From Eubacteriaceae bacterium (lineage in GTDB: Bacteria; Bacillota; Clostridia; Eubacteriales; Eubacteriaceae), in assembly GCA_030156895.1 (NCBI GenBank), contig JASGLP010000009.1:1-64000 (forward strand): 64,000 bases of DNA, given 5' to 3'. Shown here one piece after another: positions 19,529-35,104 of the stretch. Under the pieces are notes generated by a model, which worked only from the letters and a program-made list of their open reading frames with translations, was not told where the DNA came from and searched no databases. Position numbers and translations under genes: made by a program. The stretch's first letter is position 1, and every line of letters begins with the position of its first letter.

Positions 19529-21568
19529 CTAATTCAGTGCTATTTCATTCACGGATTCATAAAAAGAATGCAGTATATCATCCGCACAAATCATCATCTC
19601 CTGTTCGCCAGATGCAAGCAGCAATTGGGCCGTTTTTTTTGTCTCCTCAATGATCGAAAGATCAGTAATGGGATCTAAAAATTGCATTTGGGGCAGTCCA
19701 TGCTGCTTGTAACCAAAATAATCACCAGGCCCTCTTAGTTTTAAATCGGCCTCGGCAATTTCGCTTCCTTCATGATGATTGACGATGATTCGCATCCGCT
19801 CAATGGTGTCCTCATTAGTGGCATTGGTCACCAGAAAACACCAGGACTGGCTTTCTCCCCGGCCAACCCGACCCCGCAACTGATGAAGTTGCGCCAAACC
19901 GAATCGCTCGGCATTAAGAATAACGATCGTGTTGGCATTAGCAACATCAATCCCTACTTCAATAATGCTGGTGGCGACTAAAACCGATATTTTACCATCT
20001 CTAAAAGATGTGATGCTATTTGTTTTATCCTCAGCTGACATTTTACCGTGTAAATAGCCGACTTTAATCTGAGGTTCAAAGTCACTCTTTAAATTTTCAT
20101 AAACTGTGGCAATGTCACTGATATTTTCCATATTTTCAGAAAACTCGACAAAGGGGCAAATGACATAGGCCTGATTGCCCTTTTTTATTTCTTCTTTGAC
20201 AAATTCATAAATTTGGGGCAGTTTTTTTTCATTGTAACAATGCGTCTTTATGGCTTTTCGGCCAGCCGGCTTGTCATTGACAACTGAAAGCGTTAAATCG
20301 CCATAAAGAATCAGCGCTAAGGTTCTGGGAATCGGCGTGGCACTCATTACTAAGGTATGGGGATTTTTTCCTTTCAGGAATAACTGACCTTTTTGCCTGA
20401 CGCCAAAGCGGTGCTGTTCATCAGTAATAATCAGTCCCAGATTATAGTAGTCAACATGTTCCTGGATCAGCGCATGGGTTCCGATGATGATCGAAATCTC
20501 GCCTTCTGCCAATGCTTTTAAGATTGATTTTTTTTCCGATTCTTTAACACTGCCGGTCAGTAAACTGATCGAAATACCCGAATTTTTCAAAAAGTTGCAA
20601 AATGTCTGATAGTGTTGTCTGGCCAAAATTTCCGTTGGTGCCATATAGGCAATCTGATAGCCATTTTGTGCCAGCAAACAGGCAATGGCAACGGCAATAA
20701 CCGTTTTCCCGGAGCCAACATCTCCTTGAATCAGTCGATTAATCACACTTTTACTTTTCATTTCTGCCGTAATTTCCCGAATGATTCTGTCCTGACTAAG
20801 GGTCAGTTCAAAGGGCAGGGAATTTAAAAATATATCAAGACCATTAAAATAGGATAATTCCACGTCTGAGATCTGGTTAAGATTTCTGGATTGAAAAATG
20901 CCCATATTTATTTTTAGCGCTTCATCAAATTTAAAGCGCTGAATGCCAATTTCAGCATCATTAAAATTCTTAGGCAGATGAATTTTTCGATAGGCCTCGG
21001 CTTTTGTACAAAGCTGATTATCGTCACGTATCTTTTTTGGCAAATCAGCTGGCACCCATAAATCGTGGCTGAGAATTTCTCGAATCATTCTGGCCAAGCT
21101 TTTAGAGGGAAGACAGCTAATTAAGGGATAAACTGGTTCAAACTCGAAAAAGCTAGCCGGATCGCGGCTTAAAACAAATTGAGGATTGATCATTTTATAC
21201 TGGCCATTTTCTTTTTTTAAAGTCCCATAAAAATAATAGCTTTCATTGAGTCGTAGTATTTTTCTTAAATAGGGCTGGTTAAATATCCGTATGTTAACCA
21301 GGATATCCTGCCAGTTAGCTTTTAGCGTAAAAAAACTTTGTCGCCCCTTCATAAACTGATTAGATGAAATTTTTTCTATCTTTGCTTTGATCGTCCCCGG
21401 CTCAGTATCATCGAAATTCTCCACAGACAAAAAATTAGAGCGGTCAATGTATTTTTTGGGAAAGATATTTAAGAGGTCTTTTACTGCTAAAATACCGTGT
21501 TCTTTTAAAATCGCTTCACGTTTGGCGCCAATCCCTTTAATGTTTTTAACGGGCTGATTGAAATCCAT
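19529..21568 (-). CDS. recG: ATP-dependent DNA helicase RecG
   Basis: 679 aa. The N-terminal wedge/OB region (about 1-230) is followed by a helicase core with Walker A GDVGSGKT, the DEQH box, SATPIPRT and the C-terminal QLRGRVGRG motif. RecG remodels stalled replication forks and recombination intermediates by branch migration. All helicase motifs are intact here, in contrast to the PriA-like protein elsewhere in this region. It is 11 bp downstream of fakA. Confidence 0.95.
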   Translation of the reverse strand: MDFNQPVKNIKGIGAKREAILKEHGILAVKDLLNIFPKKYIDRSNFLSVENFDDTEPGTIKAKIEKISSNQFMKGRQSFFTLKANWQDILVNIRIFNQPYLRKILRLNESYYFYGTLKKENGQYKMINPQFVLSRDPASFFEFEPVYPLISCLPSKSLARMIREILSHDLWVPADLPKKIRDDNQLCTKAEAYRKIHLPKNFNDAEIGIQRFKFDEALKINMGIFQSRNLNQISDVELSYFNGLDIFLNSLPFELTLSQDRIIREITAEMKSKSVINRLIQGDVGSGKTVIAVAIACLLAQNGYQIAYMAPTEILARQHYQTFCNFLKNSGISISLLTGSVKESEKKSILKALAEGEISIIIGTHALIQEHVDYYNLGLIITDEQHRFGVRQKGQLFLKGKNPHTLVMSATPIPRTLALILYGDLTLSVVNDKPAGRKAIKTHCYNEKKLPQIYEFVKEEIKKGNQAYVICPFVEFSENMENISDIATVYENLKSDFEPQIKVGYLHGKMSAEDKTNSITSFRDGKISVLVATSIIEVGIDVANANTIVILNAERFGLAQLHQLRGRVGRGESQSWCFLVTNATNEDTIERMRIIVNHHEGSEIAEADLKLRGPGDYFGYKQHGLPQMQFLDPITDLSIIEETKKTAQLLLASGEQEMMICADDILHSFYESVNEIALN

Positions 21569-32758: not shown

Positions 32759-35104
32759 CTAAGTTCTGATTTCCAAAGATATTTTTGATTTAATCTTTTC
32801 CAAATCCTTCTTTTTAATAATTTCTTGATATTTTTCCTGAAAAAACGCTATGTCTTTTATTTTTAAAATAATCTGTCCAACATGATTTTTTTCTTCCCTA
32901 TAGCTGTCATGAGCCGGTTTATATAAAAATACCTTGCTGGCTTCCAGATCCCCAAACTTCTCTTTTAGTAAAATATAAAGCCGCATTGCATCATTCCTGA
33001 CAAGTTCCTCGCTGTGATTTCTGATTTTAAAAACAATCAGATTCAGATATGGCGGAAAATTCATGGTTTTTCGAAAAATCAATTCCCCTTGATAAAAAGT
33101 CTCATAATCATCTTCCTGGATCGATAAAAGCAAATCATTTTGCACATCATTTGATTGAATAAAACCACTTCCACCGGCATTTAATGCTTTTTTGAAAAAC
33201 CGTGAGTAGATATTGTAACTCATCTCTGCCGCATCATATGTTCCAAAATTTATGTCGCGATCAATGAAAAAGCTGGCCGCAACACCGACATTTGAGAAAT
33301 CGAAATGATTCGTTAAAACCTGTGTTCCAATCAGGATATCAATCTCTTTATTGTTAATCTTTTTGTTAATATTTTTTATCTCACTGCTGCTAATCCCCCC
33401 TAAAACCAGAACAATTTTAAGCTGAGGATATCTTTTTTGGAGATACTCATAAAGATTTTTAACACCGCTGCCCTGGTACCTCAGTTCTTTTCCGTCACAA
33501 TATTGGCAGTGGTCAAGTTTTTTTTCCTGAAAACCACAATAAGAACATTCCAGTGCATTACTTTTATCATTATAGCTTAAGGCGACTTGACAATGTGGAC
33601 ATTTTTGCATCTTACCACAGCTTTTACAAATCACCGCTTTTGTATACCCAACTCTATTTGCCAAAATAACTGTCAGTTTTCGATCTTTAAACGATTTTAA
33701 AATCGCCTGATCTAAAGAGCGGCTAACCGGTGTTAAATTTCCTGCTTTAAGTTCATCTTGCATATTAATAATGTGGGGCTTATTGCTGATTGGACGTTTT
33801 CCAATTTCTAAATACTGAAGCCCTTGATTTTTTATCTGATAAAATGTTTTGAGATCAGGACTTTCATCGATCAATAAATACTGGCAATTTAAAATCTCAG
33901 CATAGTGTCTGACCAGATCCGGCAAATGAAACTTGGGAATGCCAATGGAATGATACGCTGGATCACTTTCATTCTCAACAATGATGAGATCCAATTGTTT
34001 AAACGGTAAAAACATGGCTCCCTGAACGCCCAGTACCAATCTGATTTTGCCAGACTTTACATCCTCCCAGAATGCTCTTTGCTCTTTTGACGACAGTTTG
34101 TGGTGAAAAAGTCCTACATACTCACCGAAATATTTAAAAAACAACTCAAACTTCTGATAGCTGAGATTGATTTCCGGAAAAAGCAGGAGGACTGATTTGT
34201 CAGCTGCTAACTTTTCATGAATTATTTTAAAAAGCAGACGAAATTTTGAAACTGAATCATTATTTCTTAGAAAACAACCTTTGGTCAGACTTTTATTGTA
34301 TTGTTGAAAAACCGCCTCTTCACTGGCACTTAATAATACACTTCTCATACTTTGGGGATGTTGTCCGTCATCAATCAGCTGAGAAGGATTAATGATCGCT
34401 TCTTTCACTAGTCCCTTTTTGATTAAATTGGCAAGACTTGCCCGGTATCCGGGAAGCACTTGTTTTAACTCCGATTCTTTCATAGACCTGTATTCAAGCA
34501 GCTTAATGATTGCCGCCTGAGTCTTTCCGGCTCTTTCGGATTCAGGAAGCGCTGTTAAAGTGTAGCGTTTGTCATTATTCTTTTTTGCAAGTCCAAACAC
34601 ATTTTTTCGTTTTATATATCCTTGGGCAATCAGTTTTTCAATAATCTTGCGATCACTTTTTAGGATCTTGCTTTCCGCAATCTCCAACAAGCCGGCTGAA
34701 AAATACTTTGAAACTATTTCTGATTGTTCATGACCAAACTGCATCTCCGGAAGATCAAGCTTTAGATAAGATTGTTTTTTTACCGGTCTGGCTGATACAA
34801 AGTAGGCAAGATTTTCATAAAACATTGAACAGTAATAGGCTTTCATGAAAACACATAATTCTATCTGGGCTTTATTTAACACCGGTTCGGTGTCAATCAC
34901 TTCTAGAATGGGCTTTAGGGGATATGATAATGATTCAACTTCCAGCAGTCTCACAACAAAAGCTTCCAGTTGGCGGTTACCGTGACCGAAAGCCACGATG
35001 ACACGAATCCCACTTTTTATATCTGACTTATCATCTAGTGAATAATAGTATGACTGATCCAGGCGTTTATTTTTTTGCTTTAAGTAAACTTCTGCAACCT
35101 TCAA
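32759..35104 (-). CDS. priA: PriA-like primosomal protein with decayed helicase motifs
   Basis: 781 aa, normal PriA length and position. An N-terminal DNA-binding domain (about 1-105), a winged-helix region, the helicase region and a C-terminal domain align by order. All eight zinc cysteines are present (C493, C496, C502, C505, C520, C523, C533, C536). The motifs for ATP hydrolysis are lost: the Walker A position (279-288) reads LRNNDSVSKF instead of GxTGSGKT, the DEEH box (377-380) reads ENES, motif V lacks its lysine (GTQVLTNHFDF), and motif VI lacks the QxxGRxGR signature. Such a protein could still organise the replication-restart primosome but should not unwind DNA. Actinobacterial PriA shows comparable loss. 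The start is TTG with AAAGGG upstream. Confidence 0.9.
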   Translation of the reverse strand: MKVAEVYLKQKNKRLDQSYYYSLDDKSDIKSGIRVIVAFGHGNRQLEAFVVRLLEVESLSYPLKPILEVIDTEPVLNKAQIELCVFMKAYYCSMFYENLAYFVSARPVKKQSYLKLDLPEMQFGHEQSEIVSKYFSAGLLEIAESKILKSDRKIIEKLIAQGYIKRKNVFGLAKKNNDKRYTLTALPESERAGKTQAAIIKLLEYRSMKESELKQVLPGYRASLANLIKKGLVKEAIINPSQLIDDGQHPQSMRSVLLSASEEAVFQQYNKSLTKGCFLRNNDSVSKFRLLFKIIHEKLAADKSVLLLFPEINLSYQKFELFFKYFGEYVGLFHHKLSSKEQRAFWEDVKSGKIRLVLGVQGAMFLPFKQLDLIIVENESDPAYHSIGIPKFHLPDLVRHYAEILNCQYLLIDESPDLKTFYQIKNQGLQYLEIGKRPISNKPHIINMQDELKAGNLTPVSRSLDQAILKSFKDRKLTVILANRVGYTKAVICKSCGKMQKCPHCQVALSYNDKSNALECSYCGFQEKKLDHCQYCDGKELRYQGSGVKNLYEYLQKRYPQLKIVLVLGGISSSEIKNINKKINNKEIDILIGTQVLTNHFDFSNVGVAASFFIDRDINFGTYDAAEMSYNIYSRFFKKALNAGGSGFIQSNDVQNDLLLSIQEDDYETFYQGELIFRKTMNFPPYLNLIVFKIRNHSEELVRNDAMRLYILLKEKFGDLEASKVFLYKPAHDSYREEKNHVGQIILKIKDIAFFQEKYQEIIKKKDLEKIKSKISLEIRT

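Follow-up and report, generated by a model that had tools for sequence, protein, structure and literature searches.

A PriA without helicase ATPase motifs, retained across one family of Clostridia

The window, a 64,000-nucleotide stretch of contig JASGLP010000009.1 from a Eubacteriaceae metagenome-assembled genome (MAG), carries a priA gene on its minus strand. The original prediction described its product as a full-length PriA of 781 aa in the usual position, and the open reading frame, the profile models and the gene order all agree with this description. The features of the gene, together with a second helicase gene of the same window that served as a control, are as follows.

32759..35104, minus strand: priA, 781 aa, TTG start; a PriA pseudohelicase by open reading frame, translation, TIGR00595, NF004066 and Pfam matches, and fold
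34805..35074, minus strand: 3'-end DNA-binding domain (3'BD), residues 11-100, retained; Pfam PF17764, E 9e-17
34241..34264, minus strand: motif I (Walker A) site, residues 281-288, NNDSVSKF for GVTGSGKT, lost; aligned to E. coli residues 224-231 and to relatives
33965..33976, minus strand: motif II site, residues 377-380, ENES for DEEH, lost
33857..33868, minus strand: motif III site, residues 413-416, DESP for SATP, lost
33497..33628, minus strand: cysteine-rich zinc region, residues 493-536, eight of eight cysteines kept
33296..33328, minus strand: motif V site, residues 593-603, GTQVLTNHFDF for GTQMLAKGHHF, partly lost
33179..33202, minus strand: motif VI site, residues 635-642, RFFKKALN for QVAGRAGR, lost, with a deletion after it; both arginine-finger positions gone
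32774..33052, minus strand: C-terminal domain, residues 685-777, kept in divergent form; PF18074 match weak and below its cut-off
19529..21568, minus strand: recG, the control, with intact motifs GDVGSGKT, DEQH and QLRGRVGR

The assignment to PriA draws on several lines of evidence. The TIGR00595 model matches the protein with 315.8 bits, above its curated cut-off of 230.35, while NF004066 covers residues 4-779 yet scores below its own cut-off of 813. Pfam recognizes the 3'BD, Zn_ribbon_PriA and Helicase_C domains, with DEAD and PriA_C falling below their gathering scores, and alignment to a solved PriA gives the same identity. The AlphaFold model (pLDDT 84.8) has the whole PriA fold, continuous up to residue 781, and superimposes on E. 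coli PriA (6dcr_B, without the winged helix) with a Z score of 35.5 and on other PriA structures with 28.8-30.5, versus at most 19.4 for Mfd. The domains follow the PriA order of 3'BD, winged helix, helicase lobes with a zinc insertion, and C-terminal domain, and the zinc cysteines are found at residues 493, 496, 502, 505, 520, 523, 533 and 536. Further, the gene lies at the orthologous position, in the order gmk-rpoZ-priA-def-fmt-(zinc protease)-rsmB-rlmN-PP2C-kinase that is common to the window and its relatives (gene names from reading the proteins). Within the 3'BD, the residue aligned with E. coli D17 of the 3'-end pocket is Y or F in the window (35042-35050, residues 19-21, YYY) and in its nearest relative, G012, so that 3'-end recognition may also be altered there; the aspartate is kept in 33 of 40 members of the family described below.

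Residues 279-288 of the window protein read LRNNDSVSKF. As originally claimed, this Walker A segment, the ENES at 377-380 and motif VI have lost their catalytic residues while all eight zinc cysteines are kept; the residues are as they were named. The accompanying claim for motif V stands in part only, as K and G are gone but GTQ is retained. Motifs Ia (PE) and IV (N) are also retained. The protein thus lacks motifs I, II, III and VI of an SF2 ATPase, and pattern scans for a P-loop, DExH/DExD, SAT and GRxGR gave zero matches across its length. The possibility that the motifs lie at shifted positions, which the original prediction had named as grounds for abandoning it, found no support in the protein, nor did any of the six frames of the priA region contain an intact PriA motif. 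As the motifs of RecG, encoded 13 kb from priA, are intact, the loss is not an effect of sequencing or composition. It is a PriA by descent and fold but not a PriA helicase.

The window's genome contains a single PriA, but is only 85% complete, which leaves room for the proposal that this is an assembly or annotation artefact and that the real PriA lies in the unassembled 15%. The likelihood of this is negligible. Among 40 genomes from nine genera of the window's GTDB family, which includes Acetobacterium, each has one PriA, and the 39 further genomes, single-contig ones among them, show the same loss, which refutes the artefact for the family. A second PriA was found neither in the window's genome nor in its relatives, single-contig genomes included, and the other circumstance that would have undone the original prediction is therefore absent as well.

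The extent of the loss becomes clear by comparison with four sister families of the same order (f2-f5), in which 23 genomes have a PriA and four have none. TIGR00595 scores range from 115 to 399 bits across the 40 family proteins versus 514-682 in the 23 from sister families. In the alignment, motif I is lost in all 38 family members with sequence at that point versus 0/23 sister-family PriAs, and motifs III and VI are lost in 40/40, whereas every motif is kept in each of the 23 sister proteins; a contrast of this size is not due to chance. The eight zinc cysteines are present in all 40 and all 23. Motif II has a more varied history: it reads DDEH in most Acetobacterium and DEER or DEEM in three genera (g3, g4 and g6), and is unrecognizable in the window's clade and in g2, g8 and g9. 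From this distribution motif II appears to have eroded later than motifs I, III and VI, and separately in several branches. The Walker lysine position holds a basic residue in 30/40 members (K in 19, R in 11) and D320 of motif II is present in 31/40, hence the less eroded members may have residual nucleotide binding, the window's PriA less so.

The original prediction had also suggested a long-standing loss, possibly general in the lineage, under selection for the rest of the protein. Both the occurrence in all 40 genomes and the substitution pattern bear this out. The dN/dS of priA is 0.09-0.17 across 13 family pairs, helicase lobes included, which indicates purifying selection, and in this analysis conservation extends to the degenerate Walker A stretch; values for the pairs G019/G020 and G000/G012 are saturated or nearly so and unreliable. 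Mean identity of the 3'BD is 51% within the family versus 34% in the sister families, while the helicase lobes show the reverse, 35-41% versus 52-56%. SSB-pocket positions were left out of this comparison, as K. pneumoniae numbering had been applied to the E. coli sequence. The shift of conservation from the lobes to the 3'BD is, we infer, what a protein relieved of catalysis but still needed for binding should show. The lobes may nevertheless be conserved enough to serve some new role.

Outside the family, PriA was found in 389 of the 393 genomes of a sample of the class, and motif loss was seen in no other family of that sample. Seven low-scoring genomes (G185, G215, G221, G253, G271, G314 and G396) have priA genes that are split at contig ends or by frame breaks, or truncated by masked sequence; their readable motifs are all intact, with some motifs not covered. 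Four genomes of the sample that gave no PriA match at 1e-20 (G125, G348, G388 and G412) are rated 91-100% complete, and either true absence or masked sequence is possible. A scan of named genomes returned five family members, including A. fimetarium and A. paludosum, all without the motifs, and none of its other matches lacked motifs I and VI together. It should be noted that NCBI's Eubacteriaceae is wider than the family with the pseudohelicase: a MAG labelled Eubacteriaceae (L097, JAAYHF010000092.1) has an intact PriA identical to that of G051 from sister family f3.

In a PriA tree built without actinobacterial and Deinococcus sequences, the family proteins form one clade with a support of 100. 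The tree draws this clade opposite all other PriAs rather than beside its order, a failure of placement caused by long branches, so that gene order, and not this tree, is the basis on which the descent of the family PriA is argued. As all family PriAs have lost the motifs, the sister families are intact and no other family of the class sample is affected, a single loss at the base of the family, preserved ever since, is the most likely course of events. PriA of Actinobacteria, covered by the NCBIfam PRK14873 series, is annotated as probably without helicase activity, its motifs being undetectable. The window protein differs from it, matching the PRK05580 models with 389 bits versus at most 82 for PRK14873, and horizontal gain from Actinobacteria was rejected on this far better match and on the gene order.

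The best-documented precedent is the PriA of Deinococcus radiodurans, a pseudohelicase demonstrated biochemically to be without ATPase and helicase activity and to bind forks and DnaB (PMC4504706). As in the family described here, PriA of Deinococcus-Thermus is full-length and has lost Walker A and B residues, and the loss is common to a whole clade (PMC4504706). The differences are equally instructive. In Deinococcus the Walker lysine is replaced by R, whereas in the family K or R usually stays and the loss affects the glycines and T of Walker A, motif III, and motif VI, the last with a deletion. For Deinococcus PriA, the binding of DNA and forks and the contact with the replicative helicase are known from assays; in the family, the domains and partner genes are retained in sequence. 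Unlike Deinococcus, the family is nested in an order with intact PriA and has kept the DnaD-DnaI loader. As PriA pseudohelicases are already known from Deinococcus, the case presented here is a new independent lineage and not a new type: an apparently undescribed lineage of PriA pseudohelicase with a different loss pattern in a DnaD-DnaI background. No description of PriA loss in Acetobacterium, Eubacterium limosum or Clostridia was found in the open-access literature.

A laboratory precedent for a restart initiator without ATPase is the ATPase-dead E. coli K230R PriA, with which cells survive and primosomes still assemble (PMC4504706). There the defect was made by mutation; in the family it would have been fixed by evolution. 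Compared with the canonical PriA of Bacillota, represented by the sister families and by the PriA-DnaD-DnaB-DnaI system of B. subtilis, the family protein has the same gene order, domain order, zinc cysteines and fold, but has lost the ATPase motifs that are all intact in the former.

The Gram-positive loading route runs from PriA via DnaD, DnaB and DnaI to the replicative helicase (reviewed in PMC12448304). DnaD was found in 38 of the 40 family genomes, and in both the window's genome and G012 dnaD forms an operon with dnaI, whose product has an intact P-loop, implying that the route downstream of PriA is at least partly present. In mycobacteria, helicase-loader homologues have not been identified (PMC5720831).

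Collectively, these observations make it highly probable that the family PriA acts as a platform that binds forks and brings in the retained DnaD-DnaI loader, with no ATPase activity involved. Early in the ancestry of the Acetobacterium-containing family, PriA would have lost ATP binding and hydrolysis with motifs I, III and VI. It would still recognize branched DNA through the 3'BD, the helicase lobes and the zinc region, and still recruit the replicative-helicase loader, here the DnaD-DnaI pair; these two functions are proposed as the reason why priA was kept. The dead lobes would remain as a structural scaffold and as a surface for binding DNA or partners. Judged by the residues lost, ATPase activity is very likely absent, and the role in restart likely continues. 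As the motor parts are lost and PriA is nonetheless under selection, restart probably proceeds via a DNA-binding platform and not a motor.

A different reading is that PriA has been repurposed, having left restart altogether and been kept for some other task of binding DNA structures. PriA does evolve much faster than its neighbour genes, being the least conserved among them relative to the nearest relative (52% versus 67-96%), and the D17 residue of the 3'-end pocket is also lost in the window's clade. However, DnaD and DnaI are retained, no other restart initiator was seen and in most of the family few parts of PriA are better conserved than the 3'BD, all of which render repurposing very improbable.

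If PriA is a platform without a motor, the question arises of what opens the fork. Where the lagging-strand template is free, unwinding would not be needed; where it is covered, RadA/Sms, RecG or a UvrD-type helicase would have to expose it. The mere presence of a UvrD/Rep-type helicase, RadA or RecG is no evidence of replacement. One candidate is a second UvrD/Rep-type SF1 helicase of about 705 aa, present in addition to PcrA and AddA, which might have taken over fork opening before the PriA motor decayed.

L176:1746-3857 (G000:C14:17248-19356): second UvrD/Rep-type SF1 helicase, about 705 aa

This protein belongs to the SF1A helicases and is intact, with both the N and the C domain of UvrD, and its orthologue (E < 1e-160) occurs in 35 of the 40 family genomes, and in pieces in one more, versus one of the 27 sister-family genomes. 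Against such a takeover, a homologue is present in about a fifth of the sampled Clostridia outside the family, where intact PriA is the rule, and the orthologue is missing from genus g2 (genomes 83-92% complete), whose PriA is among the most decayed. The association also amounts to one data point only, as the helicase and the decay of PriA share one ancestry. The absence from g2 and the presence in many other Clostridia weaken the case for this helicase as a necessary replacement, and a takeover of this kind is improbable.

RadA/Sms could instead expose the loading site and so make the PriA motor dispensable. In B. subtilis it acts on stalled forks, where it unwinds nascent lagging strands (PMC10003422). 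Full-length or partial RadA is found in 38 of the 40 family genomes, the two without it being MAGs of 84-86% completeness, and it is present in two genomes of g2, the genus without the second UvrD-type helicase. However, RadA is common and occurs together with intact PriA in sister families f2 and f4 and in some of f3, so it is permissive at best, and its having made the motor dispensable is rather unlikely. As to the original suggestion that another helicase may open the fork, such indirect indications as there are favour RadA, or else no helicase. As a tentative and somewhat doubtful proposal for this whole family of acetogenic Clostridia, helicase reloading would be independent of ATP at the PriA step, with the fork opened by RadA or by the second UvrD/Rep-type helicase; if true, this would constitute a restart pathway with a PriA platform and a separate motor, undescribed in bacteria with DnaD and DnaI. 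As a separate observation, RadA/Sms had no match at 1e-60 in the f3 genera g15-g21 and in f5, where several genomes are more than 90% complete, while the family with the pseudohelicase keeps it.

The PriA ATPase is near-universal yet dispensable in laboratory E. coli, which raises the question of why it is conserved. The family offers a natural experiment in this respect: its members, culturable Acetobacterium among them, dropped the motor and kept PriA, while relatives with the same loader genes keep both. It gives access to three questions: which portions of PriA restart depends on, what takes the place of the motor, and by what route SF2 lobes turn into scaffolds.

Finally, the start codons of the family genes deserve mention. 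With start sites picked by alignment, the start codon of the 38 full-length priA genes of the family is GTG in 31 and TTG in seven (as in the window at 35102-35104), and ATG is absent from the next 15 codons in all 38. A conserved weak start may serve to hold PriA levels low. Among sister-family priA genes, 17 of 23 start with ATG.
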